Origin: Protofrankia sp. CiT1
Lineage (GTDB): Bacteria; Actinomycetota; Actinomycetes; Frankiales; Frankiaceae
DNA length: 59,385 nt
Assembly (NCBI RefSeq): GCF_917627385.1
Contig: NZ_CAKJTL010000081.1
Span: 1-59,385, forward strand
Direction of reading: 5' to 3'
Shown: positions 32,334 through 59,350 of the stretch, in pieces
Layout of the letters: each line of letters begins with the position of its first letter
Numbering within the stretch: the stretch's first letter is position 1
Notes under the pieces: model-generated
Databases searched by the model: none
The model's input: only the letters and a program-made list of their open reading frames with translations
Told to the model about the DNA's origin: nothing
Program-made: the position numbers and the translations under genes

Positions 32334-34226
32334 ATGGTGAAGCTGCTCGCGCCCGGCCGTCGGGCGCGGCTCCGGGCTGTCTATGGATACATGTTACCGA
32401 GTGTTTCTTCAGCTGATTCTGCTGCTTCCACCCTTTCCACTGTTTCCGCGGATGTCTTTTCAACGACACGGGTAACCGCGCCGGGCCAGGCCGGCGAGCG
32501 GGTCGGTTCCGCTAGCGCAGGCATTGCGCCGATGACGGCGGAACCGGCGCCGCTTGTCGGTCTCGTCGCCACCGCCATCCCGGTCTGGACGATGTTGTTG
32601 ATTGTCGCGACACTGCTGGCCTGGCCGATGGCGTACGCCGAGTTCGCCTCGTTGCTGGGGAGCGGTATGTGTCTCGCCGCTGTGATCTTCCTGGTTGAAC
32701 TGGCTGGACTGGCTGTCCGCTTCCGGCCCACGGATCGCGAGATTCAGCCTGACCGCCCCGGCCGTGCGTGTGGGCGGGTCGACGAACTGACCGGCCTGGC
32801 CAACCGGCACGGCTTTCTCGACCAGGCCACTCATGCGTTCGCTGATATCTCGGGCAGCTGTTCCGTAGGGGACGGAGGCCCCGAGCGTACGCGGCCCGGA
32901 TCCTCCGGTTATGTTTCCTTCGTTCTACTGCTGATCGACATCGATCGGTTCAATGAGATCAACGGCAGCCTGGGGAACGAATACGGCGACCGCCTACTGA
33001 TTGAGGTAAGCCGGCGGATCAGCGTGGTCAGGAGGCCGAGGGATATCGTCGCACGAATCGGTGGGGACGAGTTCGTGCTGCTGCTGCACGGCATCGATGC
33101 GCAGCGGGCCCGGACAGTGGCGGCCGAGACGTTGGCTCGTGTCCGCAACGCTCTGGAGGTGCCGTTCGTCCTGGCCGGGATGCGGGTACCGCTGGAGGCG
33201 AAGATCGGTATCGCCGTTGCTCCCGAGCACGGTCGCGACGTTGGTGAATTGCTGTGTAACGCCGCCATTGCCCTGCGTGAAGCGAAGAAGGCGCGTGCTG
33301 GTCACAGCATGTACGACACACGGCTGGTTCGGCCCAGCCCGGCCCAGTTACGGCTGCGTACTGAGCTTCGCGCGGGCCTTCAAGGCGGGCAGATCGAACT
33401 GCGCTACCAGCCCAAGGCGGATCTGCGCACGGGCCGCGTCAGCGGGATGGAGGCGTTGGTGCGATGGCGCCATCCCACTGACGGCGTCCGCTCGCCGGAC
33501 ATTTTTCTCCCCGACATGGAAGCGGCGGGTCTGATGCCGGAGCTGACCTTGCTCGTCCTGCGGATGGCACTGAGCGAGTGCGCACGCTGGCGCGCGGCCG
33601 GGGCGGAGCTGTCGGTGTCGGTGAACGTTCCCGTGTCCGTGATCGTCGACTCCACCTTCGCACCGGTGGTGCACGATGCGCTCGGCGCGGCCGGAGTCCC
33701 TCCCGCCGCCTTCTGCGTGGAGATCACCGAGGATTCTGTGATGACGCGGCGTGAAGATGCCCAGCGCACGCTCGCCCGATTACGGGCGCTTGGCGTCCGG
33801 GTCAGCCTTGACGATTACGGCACCGGCTACTGCTCACTGGCCTACCTGCGTGATCTTCCGGCGGATGAGCTCAAGCTCGACCGGGTCTTCCTTCGTGACA
33901 TCGAGTGGGACACTTCAGCCGCGGAGATCGTTCGTTCGGCTATTGCCCTGGCGCATACGCTCCGGCTGCGGATGGTCGCCGAAGGCGTCGAGACCATCCG
34001 GTTGTGGGCGCTGTTGGCAGCCTGGGGATGCGACGAGGCACAGGGCTATTTCATCTCTCGGCCGATGACCGGCGACGAGGTCCTGCCCTGGTTGGGCCAG
34101 TGGGCCCGGCACCCTCGGTTATTTCAGGAAATGATCATTATGGGTGGGGATATGACGGTAGAGGTCAGCCGGTCATGCGTGCGGCGAGAGTCAGGAGCCC
34201 AAGTGGCCGCGCCAGCGCGGCGCTGA
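32334..34226 (+). CDS. membrane-anchored GGDEF-EAL c-di-GMP enzyme
   Basis: About 630 residues from ATG 32334. Two membrane helices (VATAIPVWTMLLIVATLLAW, GMCLAAVIFLVELAGLAVRF) precede a GGDEF domain with intact IGGDEFVLLL near residue 243 and an inhibitory RxxD site (RPRD) five residues before it. The EAL domain shows MEALVRWRHP, SVNVPVSVIV, EITEDSV, DDYGTGYCSLAYL, ELKLDRVF and VAEGVET, so both catalytic sites look usable. Start uncertain: in-frame GTG 32238 or 32076 are alternatives, none with a clear ribosome site. Embedded between wecB and the phosphatase gene, whose 3' end it overlaps by 62 bp on the opposite strand. Confidence 0.9.
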   Translation: MVKLLAPGRRARLRAVYGYMLPSVSSADSAASTLSTVSADVFSTTRVTAPGQAGERVGSASAGIAPMTAEPAPLVGLVATAIPVWTMLLIVATLLAWPMAYAEFASLLGSGMCLAAVIFLVELAGLAVRFRPTDREIQPDRPGRACGRVDELTGLANRHGFLDQATHAFADISGSCSVGDGGPERTRPGSSGYVSFVLLLIDIDRFNEINGSLGNEYGDRLLIEVSRRISVVRRPRDIVARIGGDEFVLLLHGIDAQRARTVAAETLARVRNALEVPFVLAGMRVPLEAKIGIAVAPEHGRDVGELLCNAAIALREAKKARAGHSMYDTRLVRPSPAQLRLRTELRAGLQGGQIELRYQPKADLRTGRVSGMEALVRWRHPTDGVRSPDIFLPDMEAAGLMPELTLLVLRMALSECARWRAAGAELSVSVNVPVSVIVDSTFAPVVHDALGAAGVPPAAFCVEITEDSVMTRREDAQRTLARLRALGVRVSLDDYGTGYCSLAYLRDLPADELKLDRVFLRDIEWDTSAAEIVRSAIALAHTLRLRMVAEGVETIRLWALLAAWGCDEAQGYFISRPMTGDEVLPWLGQWARHPRLFQEMIIMGGDMTVEVSRSCVRRESGAQVAAPARR

Positions 34227-54549: not shown

Positions 54550-55521
54550 TTATCCGACCGGTACCGCGTCGGGTCCGCGCTCGGCCGGCGCGCAGGCGGC
54601 CGGCGCACCGGCGGGCGCGTCCGGAGCCGGCCGTTCGACCATCGCGAGCCAGACCCACAGGGTGATCATCCACAGTGCGGTGGCCCCGGCGATGTGCAGT
54701 TCCACCAGGCCCACGGGCACACCGGTGAAGTACTGGGTGAACCCGATGCCGGCCTGGGCCAGCACGACGGCGGCGAGCACGGTGGTCGCGCGGACGGCCT
54801 CAGCCCGCGCCTCCCCGAGACGGACCGCGAGAACCATTGCGATCATGAGGCCCACCAGCACCATCGCCGCGTCCGCGTGCAACTGCGCGACATTGGTGAT
54901 ATCGAGCCCGAAGCGTCTGGCCTGGGCCGAGTCCCCGCTGTGCGGGCCGGTGCCGGTGACCACCGTGCCGAGCAGCAGCACGGCGCCGGCGACCAGGGTG
55001 AGCACCCGGGCCAGCCAGCGCAGCTCGGGCCGGCCCACGGGGCGGGCCGGGCCGGGGCCCGATCCGGCCCGGCGGTCCAGCACGATGACGTCCACCAGCA
55101 GCAGCATCGACAGCAGGAAGTGACCGGCCACCAGCGCGGGGTGCAACTTGAAAAGGACGGTCAGCCCGCCGAGCAGCACCTGGCCGAGGAAACCCAGCCA
55201 CAGGCCGAAAGAGAGCATGACGAGGTCACGGCGACGGTCGCGCAGCCGCAGGGAGACCAGCGGCAGCAGCAGCATCACCAGTCCGACGGCGACTGTCAGC
55301 AGGCGATTACCGAATTCGATCCAGCCGTGCGCGGAATACTCCGGCCGGGTGACGAACGAATTGTCGCCACAGGTGGGCCAGGTGGGGCAGCCAAGTCCGG
55401 AGCCGGTCAGCCGGACCGCGCCGCCGGTGACGACAATCAGCGCGAGCAAGGCGACGGAGATCCGGGTGAGTCGCCTGAAAACGGTGGGGCTCACTGTCGG
55501 TATTCTTCGCGATGCGTTCAT
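54550..55521 (-). CDS. ctaA: heme A synthase (CtaA/COX15 family)
   Basis: Oxidises heme O to heme A. 323 residues with eight membrane helices: VVTGGAVRLTGSGLGCPTWP with a conserved CPTWPTC cysteine pair, SAHGWIEFGNRLLTVAVGLV (heme-ligand His, E-x-x-N-R-L motif), FKLHPALVAGHFLLSMLLL and VAQLHADAAMVLVGLMIAM. The C-terminal tail is Ala/Pro-rich. Ends 123 bp from the convergent ctaB stop; the gap holds GAGCT pentamer repeats (54426-54442). Confidence 0.94.
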   Translation of the reverse strand: MNASRRIPTVSPTVFRRLTRISVALLALIVVTGGAVRLTGSGLGCPTWPTCGDNSFVTRPEYSAHGWIEFGNRLLTVAVGLVMLLLPLVSLRLRDRRRDLVMLSFGLWLGFLGQVLLGGLTVLFKLHPALVAGHFLLSMLLLVDVIVLDRRAGSGPGPARPVGRPELRWLARVLTLVAGAVLLLGTVVTGTGPHSGDSAQARRFGLDITNVAQLHADAAMVLVGLMIAMVLAVRLGEARAEAVRATTVLAAVVLAQAGIGFTQYFTGVPVGLVELHIAGATALWMITLWVWLAMVERPAPDAPAGAPAACAPAERGPDAVPVG

Positions 55522-55607: not shown

Positions 55608-56450
55608 TTATTCCCATTTGAAGGTCCGCGCCGCGAGGGCCAGCGAACCGATGGCCCAGGCGAGCAACACGGCGAGATCCGTGACAGGCAGCCCGGCGGA
55701 GCCCCGCAGGACCGCGCGCAGTCCCTCCGACGCCGCGGCCGTGGGCAGCAGCGCGCCCAGGCTCGCCAGCCAGCCAGGCAGCCGGGAGAGTGGGAAGACG
55801 ATCCCGCCCACGAGCAACAACAGCAGGTAGACACCGTTGGCCGCGGCCAGGGTGGCTTCCGCCCGCAGCGTGCCCGCCATGAGCAGCCCGAGGCCGGAGA
55901 AGGCCACCGTCGCCACCAGCAGGAGCAACGCCACCGACAGCGGGGAGCCGTGCGGATGCCAGCCGGCGCCGAGGCCCACGGCGACTATCAACAGAACCTG
56001 GATGATCTCTACGCCGACCACGGCCAGTGTCTTGCCGGCGAGCAGGATCACGCGTGGCAGGGGGCTGGCGCCGAGCCGTTTGAGCACACCGTAGGAACGC
56101 TCGAAACCGGTCGCGATGGCCTGCCCGGTGAACGCCGTCGACATGACCGCGAGGGCCAGGACGCCGGGGACGAGAAAGTCCACCGGCGCACCCGCACCGG
56201 TGGGCAGCACGTCCACGGCGGTGAAGAACAGCAGCAGGCCAACTGGAATGATCATGGTGAGCAGCACCGATTCGCTGCGGCGCAGCGTCAGCTTCATTTC
56301 GATCATCGTCTGCGCCCGCAGCATGGCCGGCCAGCGCGCGGCACCAGGCGCCGGGCGAAGATCGAGTGGGCGCCGGGCGGCTGGTAGCTGTCCGGCCACT
56401 GTCGTCTCGGATGGTGCGCCGGTGCTGGCACCGGCGTCCATGCCGGTCAC
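55608..56450 (-). CDS. ABC-2 type exporter permease
   Basis: 280 residues with six hydrophobic segments, e.g. SVLLTMIIPVGLLLFFTAVD, FLVPGVLALAVMSTAFTGQA and FSGLGLLMAGTLRAEATLAA. MLRAQTMIEMKLTLRRSESV is the typical amphipathic entry. GTG 56450 overlaps the ATPase stop as GTGA; ATG 56441 is an alternative. Works with the ATPase at 56447 as a two-protein exporter. Genes of this type commonly lie between ctaA and suf genes in actinobacteria; substrate unknown. Confidence 0.88.
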   Translation of the reverse strand: MTGMDAGASTGAPSETTVAGQLPAARRPLDLRPAPGAARWPAMLRAQTMIEMKLTLRRSESVLLTMIIPVGLLLFFTAVDVLPTGAGAPVDFLVPGVLALAVMSTAFTGQAIATGFERSYGVLKRLGASPLPRVILLAGKTLAVVGVEIIQVLLIVAVGLGAGWHPHGSPLSVALLLLVATVAFSGLGLLMAGTLRAEATLAAANGVYLLLLLVGGIVFPLSRLPGWLASLGALLPTAAASEGLRAVLRGSAGLPVTDLAVLLAWAIGSLALAARTFKWE

Positions 56451-57388
56451 GGACGCAGCCCCGAGCCGGTGAGTTCCACGAACACGTCCTCCAGGCTGCG
56501 CTGTTCGACTCTGAGGTCCTCGGCCAGTACACCGTTGCTTGCGCACCACGCGGTCACGGCCGCGAGCAGCTGCGGATCGATCGTGCCGTGCACGACGTAG
56601 CGACCGGCGGGCTCCTCGCGGGCGACCGTCCCGTCCGGGAGGGCCAGCACGAGGCGGTCGATGTCGAGACCCGCGGGTGCCCGGAAGCGCAGCTGCCCCT
56701 CGGCGCCGCCGCGGGTCAGTTCGGCCGGGGAGCCCGCCGCCAGCATCCCGCCATGGTCGACGATCACGACGTGGTCGGCGAGCCGCTCCGCCTCGTCCAT
56801 GGCGTGGGTGGTGAGCACCACCGTCACCCCGCAGACACGCAGCTCTTCGACCAGCTCCCAGGTGGCTCGGCGGGCCTGCACGTCCAGGCCGGCGGTGGGC
56901 TCGTCCAGGAAGACGAGCTCGGGCCGGCCCACCAGCGCCATTGCCAGGGACAGCCGCTGGCGCTGGCCGCCGGACAGGCGCCGGTAGGGCGTGCGCGCTG
57001 CCCCGGCCATGCCGACCCGCTCGAGCAGAGAGCCGACGTCCAGCGGGTTGCGGTGATGAGCGGCGAGCAGCGCGAGCATTTCGCCGGCTCGGGCACCCGG
57101 GTAGACCCCGCCAGCCTGGAGCATGACCCCCACCCGAGGGCGCAGGGCGGCCACGTCGCGCCGAGGATCGAGACCGAGCACCCGCACATGGCCCGCGTCC
57201 GCGTGCCGGAAGCCCTCGCAGATCTCGATGGTGGTGGTCTTGCCTGCGCCGTTGGGGCCGAGCAGGGCCGTCACCGAACCGGTTACCACGCTCAGCGACA
57301 GGTTGTTGACGGCCCGAATGGGTTGGCCGGAACGTGGCCAGTAGGTCTTGACCAGGTCGGCAACCTCGACTGCCAGATCCTCCGCCAC
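56447..57388 (-). CDS. ABC exporter ATP-binding protein (DrrA-like)
   Basis: 313 residues: Walker A LLGPNGAGKTTTIEICEGF, Q-loop VGVMLQAGGVYPGARAGE, signature RRLSGGQRQRLSLAMALVGR, Walker B LVFLDEPTAGLDVQARRATW and switch His VVLTTHAMDEAERLADHVVI. The C-terminal RSLEDVFVELTGSGLRP is the DrrA-type tail. GTG 57388 has TAGGA upstream and is preferred; ATG 57430 would add 14 residues. First gene of the two-gene exporter unit. Confidence 0.92.
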   Translation of the reverse strand: MAEDLAVEVADLVKTYWPRSGQPIRAVNNLSLSVVTGSVTALLGPNGAGKTTTIEICEGFRHADAGHVRVLGLDPRRDVAALRPRVGVMLQAGGVYPGARAGEMLALLAAHHRNPLDVGSLLERVGMAGAARTPYRRLSGGQRQRLSLAMALVGRPELVFLDEPTAGLDVQARRATWELVEELRVCGVTVVLTTHAMDEAERLADHVVIVDHGGMLAAGSPAELTRGGAEGQLRFRAPAGLDIDRLVLALPDGTVAREEPAGRYVVHGTIDPQLLAAVTAWCASNGVLAEDLRVEQRSLEDVFVELTGSGLRP

Positions 57389-57631
57389 ACTGGCGATCCT
57401 ACGGACCACTGCGTGCACGGCGCGCGGCATGTCTCGGCCGGCATGTATCGGTGCAGGTAACGGCAGGCACCGGTACGCGAAGGGCCGGGCGGCAGCGAAG
57501 ATCCGGGCGGCAGCAGCCAGGGCGTGTCCCGAAAGCCATCTGGACGCGGCTCCCGATCGAACGACGGCTTCCGAACCACGCCGCAGGTCAGGTCTGATGG
57601 ACCGTCAACCGCGTGGATCGATACCCGCATC

Positions 57632-57666
57632 GGCCACCGGCCACCGGCCACCGGCCACCGGCCACC
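57632..57666. repeat. 7-bp tandem repeat, five copies
   Basis: Five perfect copies of GGCCACC lie just downstream of the BldD-like gene, in the spacer before the ABC operon. Confidence 0.85.
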
Positions 57667-57682
57667 ATCCAGCAGACATGCG

Positions 57683-58234
57683 CTAACTGTGCCGTCCCCG
57701 AGGTGACGGGGGCCGCTGGCCGGGGCTCGGGTCCGCGAGCGCGCCCCACGCGCCGAGGCGTTGGTACAGGATCAGCGGGGTTGTGCTGTACAGCCGGGCC
57801 AGCGGGCGCAGGTCGGTCCGCCGCAGGCGCAGCACGTCCCGGGAGCTCTCCGCGCGCAGCACCTGGATGATCGCGATCCACCGCCGCAGCGGCCCGGTGC
57901 GGGTCGGTGGCAGTTTGCGCAGCCGGTGCAGGTCGATGGCAAGCGGCGGCAGCCGTACCAGCTCGGGCCTGGCCGACGGTGGCGGGACAAGCATGATCGT
58001 GGCTACGTCGTAGAGCTCGGCCAGTTCCACCAGGCGATGTACGCGCAGCGCGCGGTTGCCGCGTTCGTAGGCGCCGAGGGTGCCTGCCGTCCAACGCCCG
58101 TTGGTCCGCTCCTGGACGTCGAGGAGGGACATCCCGCGTCGGTGGCGGGTGGCCCGCAGCCGGTGCCCCAGCTCCGCGGCGTAGTCCCTGCTTGCACCGG
58201 AGTGGGCCTCGGTCACGCTCTCCGTCCGGGTCAC
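57683..58234 (-). CDS. BldD-like helix-turn-helix transcriptional regulator
   Basis: 183 residues with the BldD layout. An XRE-type HTH (ELGHRLRATRHRRGMSLLDV, WTAGTLGAYERGNRALRVHR) is followed by a C-terminal domain (LAIDLHRLRKLPPTRTGPLR, RWIAIIQVLRAESSRDVLRL). BldD dimers are bridged by c-di-GMP through an RxD-x8-RxxD signature. Here the aligned positions read R127-A-E129, eight residues, then R138-R-T-D141, so the first aspartate is glutamate. It may be a paralogue of the true BldD. Divergent from sufR. Confidence 0.85.
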   Translation of the reverse strand: MTRTESVTEAHSGASRDYAAELGHRLRATRHRRGMSLLDVQERTNGRWTAGTLGAYERGNRALRVHRLVELAELYDVATIMLVPPPSARPELVRLPPLAIDLHRLRKLPPTRTGPLRRWIAIIQVLRAESSRDVLRLRRTDLRPLARLYSTTPLILYQRLGAWGALADPSPGQRPPSPRGRHS

Positions 58235-58582
58235 AACGAACCAGGGACGCCGTTCGCCCCCCTGCCGCAGCCTGGCAGGAGTTGGCCCGCGAGACGACCG
58301 TCTCGTTCATGATCCTATGTTGATAGGAGTGGTCTGCCTGTGGTAGCTCGATCGCCGAAGGTACTGGCGGGGGCCGGGCGCCGGCCCGTCCGCGCTCCCG
58401 GAGACCTCGCGTCACGTCTTCGGCGCGGCCCGGGAAAGGGGTGTGGCGCATCAGACGCTCGGCTCGATCACATGGTCCACGCCCAGGTCAGATGCCACGA
58501 TGGTCAGGTATTCCGACAGCTCGCGCCGACTCGGCACACAGGCTTGTTCGACCCCCGGCGGGAAATAGGGCACAGTGGTGTT
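58235..58582. promoter_or_regulatory. divergent promoter region of the bldD-like gene and sufR
   Basis: 348 bases without a supported gene; the sufR frame remains open to 58340 but lacks similarity there. Promoters for both genes and a probable SufR operator should lie here; no operator could be pinned down with confidence. Confidence 0.45.
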
Positions 58583-59350
58583 GTGAAAAGCATGCCCGAC
58601 GCTTCCAGCGGCACGGTGGCCGATGGCCGTACCCGTGACCGTGTCGCGCGCCTGCTCCTGGAACTCGGTCCCTCGACCGCGGTCACGCTCGCCGCTCATC
58701 TCGGCCTGTCCCCGGCGGCGATCCGCCGGCATCTTGACGCGATGCTCGCCGAGGAAACGATCACGATCCGGTCGGCGCGGGCCGCGGGCCCACGCGGCCG
58801 CGGGCGTCCAGCCCGGCTCTACCAGCTCACCGCGGCCGGGCACGCGGCGGGCCCGACCGCGTACGAAGACCTTGCGGCCAGCGCGCTGAGTTTCCTCGCA
58901 GGCGTCGCGGGCCACCAAGGTGTCGCGGAGTTCGCCGAGGCGCGCGCCGCGGAGCTGGAACGCCGCGTCAAGCCGGCGGTGGCCGACGCCGATCCGGCGG
59001 ACCGGCCGGCGGTGCTGGCGGCGGCCATGTCCGCCGCCGGCTACACCGCCAGCGCCTCGTCACTGCCGACCGGCGTCCAGATCTGCCAGCACCACTGCCC
59101 GGTCCAACACGTCGCGGAGCGATTTCCCGAGCTCTGCGGAGCGGAGACCGCCGCATTGGCGAGGTTGCTCGACTCCCATGTCCAGCGGCTCGCGACAATC
59201 GCGCACGGCGACGGGGTGTGCACGACGCATGTTCCCCTGGAGCCTGCCCCCGTTGCCGCTACCAGTACGTCCACCGGCACCTCCACCGGCTGTACGGCTA
59301 CCGCAATGAACCCCGTCACTTCCACCTCCTCGGAGGGGCCTGTCATATGA
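58583..59350 (+). CDS. sufR: iron-sulfur cluster biosynthesis regulator SufR
   Basis: Winged-helix repressor of the suf operon that senses Fe-S status. About 255 residues: DRVARLLLELGPSTAVTLAA and HLGLSPAAIRRHLDAMLAEE form the DNA-binding head, RGRGRPARLYQLTAAG the wing. Four cysteines in the C-terminal part are arranged C-x3-C-x12-C-x27-C (ICQHHCPVQHVAERFPELCG and HGDGVCTTH), suited to a cluster. The Thr/Ser-rich tail (ATSTSTGTSTGCTATAM) is low-complexity. Start GTG 58583 or ATG 58592. The stop overlaps the next ATG (ATGA), a coupled suf operon. Confidence 0.9.
   Translation: MKSMPDASSGTVADGRTRDRVARLLLELGPSTAVTLAAHLGLSPAAIRRHLDAMLAEETITIRSARAAGPRGRGRPARLYQLTAAGHAAGPTAYEDLAASALSFLAGVAGHQGVAEFAEARAAELERRVKPAVADADPADRPAVLAAAMSAAGYTASASSLPTGVQICQHHCPVQHVAERFPELCGAETAALARLLDSHVQRLATIAHGDGVCTTHVPLEPAPVAATSTSTGTSTGCTATAMNPVTSTSSEGPVI

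Follow-up and report, generated by a model that had tools for sequence, protein, structure and literature searches.

The analysed stretch of 59,385 nucleotides from Protofrankia sp. CiT1, referred to here as the window, encodes a BldD-like paralogue (BLP) of a subfamily that is specific to the Frankiaceae. BldD itself acts as a switch in development. The fold and the signature of the BldD C-terminal domain are kept in BLP, with three of the four guanine-reading residues invariant and the fourth always acidic. The reading we favour, at slightly better than even odds (about 0.55), is that BLP has retained the ability to bind a cyclic dinucleotide containing guanine, c-di-GMP being the most probable, though its affinity or its route of assembly has changed. 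The interest of this protein appears to lie in a subfamily restricted to one family of bacteria and having a rebuilt ligand site, rather than in a single Asp to Glu change. No paper on a BldD paralogue of Frankia has been found in the literature searched.

Table 1. Features of the BLP locus with their window coordinates
Feature	Position	Strand	Remarks
BLP, BldD-like paralogue, 177 aa	57683..58216	-	Pfam PF21179 and HTH_31; ribosome-binding site and probable start conserved in orthologues
c-di-GMP signature R-A-E-x8-R-R-T-D (R121, E123, R132, D135)	57812..57856	-	from translated sequence
Ribosome-binding stretch GGACGGAGAGC	58217..58227	-	nearly invariant across Frankiaceae
Possible leader hairpin, 23-base inverted repeat CAGGGGGGCG-aacg-GCGTCCCTG	58242..58264	-	consensus fold -11.4 kcal/mol
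Eroded BldD box TGCCAGGCTGCGG	58265..58277	-	Frankia/Pseudofrankia counterpart: full TNAC-N5-GTNA, mostly TGACAGGCTGTCA
ABC transporter ATPase	56447..57430	-	directly downstream of BLP, co-oriented, constant neighbour
ABC transporter permease	55608..56549	-	
ctaA-like (haem A synthase family)	54550..55521	-	by resemblance
sufR-like regulator	58583..59350	+	divergent; sufB-sufD-sufC-sufS-sufU beyond window; suf names by resemblance

Domain organisation and start site

The stop codon of BLP lies at 57683 on the minus strand, and the open frame (57683-58234) gives a reading of 183 residues. The start is probably the GTG at 58216, six codons downstream of the earlier 58234, since a ribosome site of the form GGACGGAGAnC-GTG is conserved among the orthologues, most of which lack a usable start at the position matching 58234. 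The residue numbers given in the earlier note are correct for the 183-residue reading and would shift to those of Table 1 in the shorter protein. Just past the stop codon the 7-base unit GGCCACC is repeated in tandem (57630-57668).

The domain family HTH_31 has been assigned to residues 21-77 (34.6 bits against a Pfam cut-off of 27) and PF21179, BldD-like_C, to residues 98-166 (E-value 4e-24; 84.7 bits against a curated cut-off of 27), so that BLP combines an XRE/HTH domain and a BldD-like C-terminal domain as BldD-type regulators do. Searches with phmmer relate it to the DNA-binding domain of BldD (2ewt, 2.8e-16) and to c-di-GMP complexes of the BldD C-terminal domain (5khd and 4oaz, ~8e-13), the signature being aligned without gaps. 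The likeness to BldD through both domains, noticed at first reading, is thus borne out by Pfam and phmmer alike, and BldD entries are the closest solved sequences.

The structure model of the whole protein is poor (pLDDT 63), the C-terminal domain reaching about 75. The secondary structure of this domain in the model comprises two beta-alpha-alpha repeats, as in the BldD-like_C fold. At E-values below 0.001 Foldseek matches this part of the model with BldD C-terminal domain entries only, most of them with c-di-GMP, at TM scores mostly of 0.85-0.93 by target length and about 40% identity.

Paralogues, phylogeny and distribution

Three BldD-type proteins are encoded in the genome. They include a canonical BldD on contig C142, with the signature RGDYNGRVLSIRYED, which answers the call for a genome search made with the first description; a second protein on C54, with RDDYAGQVLSIRDGD; and BLP. 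In the tree BLP is placed outside BldD, in a clade apart with 100/100 support, so the description as a BldD paralogue holds on the tree and on the presence of a canonical BldD at another locus. A very long stem (2.3 changes per column) leads to the BLP clade, and the function of BLP may therefore have shifted. Within the clade the two domains are about equally conserved, with 74% invariant columns in the C-terminal and 69% in the DNA-binding domain by manual count. A stem so long, followed by a C-terminal domain so well conserved, leads us to infer one early functional shift with subsequent constraint.

Of 35 Frankiaceae genomes, 32 have an orthologue of BLP; the 360 other genomes of the 395-genome class sample have none. 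A wide distribution is ruled out, as scores fall from 262-348 bits in these 32 genomes to at most 148 bits in all else, and a scan of the genomes of 84,980 species, whose search patterns were taken from the BLP subfamily and so reach only its close relatives, yielded 23 loci, every one in Frankia, Parafrankia, Protofrankia or Pseudofrankia. Most Frankiaceae, considering this genome and 34 relatives, encode three to five PF21179 proteins. In another family of the class exactly one is found in 39 of 41 genomes and none in the other two, and almost all genomes outside the Frankiaceae that have a match in the class sample give one match to the BLP profile. Lineage-specific expansion of BldD-like regulators is a trait of the Frankiaceae in the sample studied.

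The second paralogue, on C54, shares the genome and the PF21179 family with BLP and, unlike it, keeps Arg84, Ser123, Arg130 and Asp116 and belongs to a separate clade.

The genome encodes 13 GGDEF domains. One of them is situated in the window at 32916-33296 (E-value 1.5e-29), within an open frame of 725 codons, and is partial at its start (profile positions 32-158).

Signature motif and the Asp/Glu position

The signature of BLP reads R-A-E-SSRDVLRL-R-R-T-D, its counterpart in BldD being RGD-x8-RQDD. The RAE motif is real and not a chance occurrence; the spacing of RxD-x8-RxxD is kept and the first Asp is Glu, as had been stated. The window protein thus keeps three of the four residues, and all four are present in most orthologues.

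In BldD numbering, Arg114, Arg125 and Asp128 are invariant throughout the subfamily. At position 116 most orthologues have Asp, among them the deepest, G007 (RNDHSRDVLKLRRTD). Glu is found in the five Protofrankia genomes, without exception, and in four Pseudofrankia-type genomes, which rules out an oddity of a single genome; no residue other than Asp or Glu occurs there among the orthologues read. With this column left out of the tree, at least three changes are required at the position, each being a third-position codon difference (GAC versus GAG or GAA). 'RxE' is accordingly best read as a conservative and recurrent swap. The proposal that the Asp to Glu change is the key event is not supported in view of this toggling within one orthologous group, in which the other three signature residues stay constant and RxD prevails.

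Asp116 of BldD touches just one of the two intercalated c-di-GMP dimers, the remainder being done by Arg114, Arg125 and Asp128, and mutation of motif 1 as a whole abolishes c-di-GMP binding (PMC4151990). According to their titles, the PDB entries 5tzf and 5tzg hold the C-terminal domain of BldD D116A bound to (c-di-GMP)2, which indicates that Asp116 can be lost without abolishing binding of the first pair. The residue substituted is the same as in BLP; Ala removes the acid and Glu keeps it, and D116A was made in an otherwise normal BldD. By analogy with these structures, the milder change to Glu is by itself unlikely to prevent binding. It may plausibly affect the second c-di-GMP dimer, and is probably a conservative adjustment of the site of that dimer by which function is not lost. 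Since Asp and Glu forms both occur naturally among these orthologues, the group offers a set of variants for studying the role of the motif-1 acid in c-di-GMP loading.

Other ligand contacts, charge and recognition helix

The contacts named in PMC4151990 have been mapped onto the subfamily, and the ligand site, previously described as altered, is so over a wider range than had been seen (positions 84, 118, 119, 123 and 130). Lys/Arg84 is replaced by Pro (Thr in G007), Asn118 by Ser, Ala or Thr, and Ser123 by Arg or Lys; the window protein has Pro84, Ser118 and Arg123. Arg130 is mostly replaced by Gln, Thr or Leu, although the window protein itself keeps it. Arg119 and Arg126 are gained. Arg84 and Ser/Thr123 are retained nearly everywhere in the other paralogues of the Frankiaceae, and Arg130 is kept in the second paralogue. 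The computed pI of the C-terminal domain is 11.3-12.0 in the subfamily as against 6.4 in Frankiaceae BldD. Judged from these alignments, the hallmark of the subfamily is the loss of the phosphate contacts (Lys/Arg84 and mostly Arg130) and of Asn118 and Ser123 together with a strongly basic C-terminal domain, and not the Asp to Glu change.

These losses, taken with the essential nature of motif 1 in BldD, count against c-di-GMP binding. Three other readings of the site have been weighed. BLP could bind c-di-GMP, in its Glu forms or in all, and halt at the half-loaded (c-di-GMP)2, acting as a monomer, a ligand buffer or a c-di-GMP-independent binder instead of pairing as BldD does. The appearance of BldD D116A as a (c-di-GMP)2 intermediate and the lost phosphate contacts at 84 and mostly 130 agree with such a halt; it is nevertheless rather improbable, since Glu retains an acid reading guanine N1/N2, and most orthologues have Asp, with nothing but these two acids at 116. 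A switch of the site to another ligand or to none, the conserved arginines serving nucleic acid or protein contacts, would fit the long stem branch, the lost contacts and the gain of Arg119, Arg123 and Arg126. We regard it as improbable, because invariant Arg114, Arg125 and Asp128 with an acid at 116 are best explained by guanine reading of the BldD type. Mixed dimers, in which the basic C-terminal domain of BLP and the acidic one of canonical BldD would face each other across the c-di-GMP cage and retune the BldD regulon, draw on the difference in pI and on the invariant signature residues present in both proteins. The recognition helices of the two differ, and this arrangement is very unlikely.

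The helix WKAVVVGSYERGDR of BldD is WTAGTLGAYERGNR in the window protein (GSR in most orthologues), and it departs from BldD at positions 36, 38, 39, 40, 42 and 47. Because of these differences the DNA target of BLP may differ from that of BldD.

For the favoured reading, retained binding of a guanine cyclic dinucleotide, the mechanism would be as follows. BLP, with an XRE-type DNA-binding domain and a BldD-type C-terminal domain, would be paired on DNA, two copies at a time, by the ligand, most likely c-di-GMP. Its affinity or assembly path would be changed relative to BldD, as suggested by the loss of the phosphate contacts and two base contacts and by the new arginines at 119, 123 and 126. 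More tentatively, the stoichiometry in which the rebuilt site binds c-di-GMP, or a guanine nucleotide related to it, may be new, or the ligand may drive pairing with canonical BldD; the Frankiaceae would then read c-di-GMP through two proteins, BldD and a differently tuned BLP.

Compared with BldD of Streptomyces (PMC4151990), BLP shares the two-domain layout, the fold of the C-terminal domain, the signature spacing and Arg114, Arg125 and Asp128. It differs in Glu116, Pro84, Ser118 and Arg123, in position 130 being unconserved among orthologues, in the basic C-terminal domain, the recognition helix, a locus other than that of bldD and a range limited to the Frankiaceae. The divergent pocket bears on how far a BldD site can change and yet read its messenger, and in BLP these nitrogen-fixing symbionts of plants may have a further reader of c-di-GMP besides BldD.

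Upstream region

The BldD box is defined as TNAC-N5-GTNA (PMC4151990). A full box lies 59-63 bases before the BLP start in all 20 sampled orthologues of Frankia and Pseudofrankia; the average background at the same loci is 0.014 per 110 bases, and as the sequences are related the count is not to be read as a probability. The box is degenerate before BLP in Protofrankia and Parafrankia. The window's TGCCAGGCTGCGG retains three of the six defining bases, and no intact box is found in the BLP/sufR part of the window. In all ten Frankiaceae checked, this genome included, a box is present some 235 bases upstream of canonical bldD. The ancestral BLP gene was probably controlled through a BldD box, as is still seen in Frankia and Pseudofrankia, the box having been eroded in the lineage of the window.

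Between the box and the ribosome site the leader carries an inverted repeat that contains many pairs of the G-U type and is conserved in most orthologues. In the alignment of orthologues no pair of this possible hairpin is kept through changes on both sides.

Gene neighbourhood

Downstream of BLP, and in its own direction, lie the ATPase, the permease and ctaA wherever the contig extends far enough, except on two short contigs (on one, L080, none of the three is present). The first candidate targets of BLP would be these co-oriented genes, the ABC transporter and ctaA.

On the other side sufR and sufB are placed divergently. The reported adjacency of BLP and sufR is correct for Protofrankia; elsewhere in the Frankiaceae other genes intervene, and the two are separated by roughly 3 kb in most genomes, by 1.3 kb in L076 and by about 1.1 kb in G007. 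In the two genomes read, the gap contains a lipoprotein gene and glpK (Frankia L067) or glpK (Pseudofrankia-type L076). Being a feature of Protofrankia, the adjacency says little about Fe-S control. The earlier note's tie of Fe-S or redox status to c-di-GMP signalling drew on this adjacency alone and is unsupported. That BLP couples Fe-S status to c-di-GMP via sufR has in its favour the divergent, adjoining genes of Protofrankia, and is most improbable in view of the wide gap in most other genomes with its intervening genes, the absence of cysteine from the BLP sequence and the absence of an intact BldD box from this part of the window.

The sequence ACAGTGGTGTTGTGA (58572-58586) lies over the likely start of sufR in a stretch conserved in the genus, and resembles the mycobacterial SufR site, ACACT-N5-TGTGA. 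Beyond the window, L116 (C81, 70296-71357) is similar, by resemblance only, to a Cas7-family protein of type I CRISPR systems.
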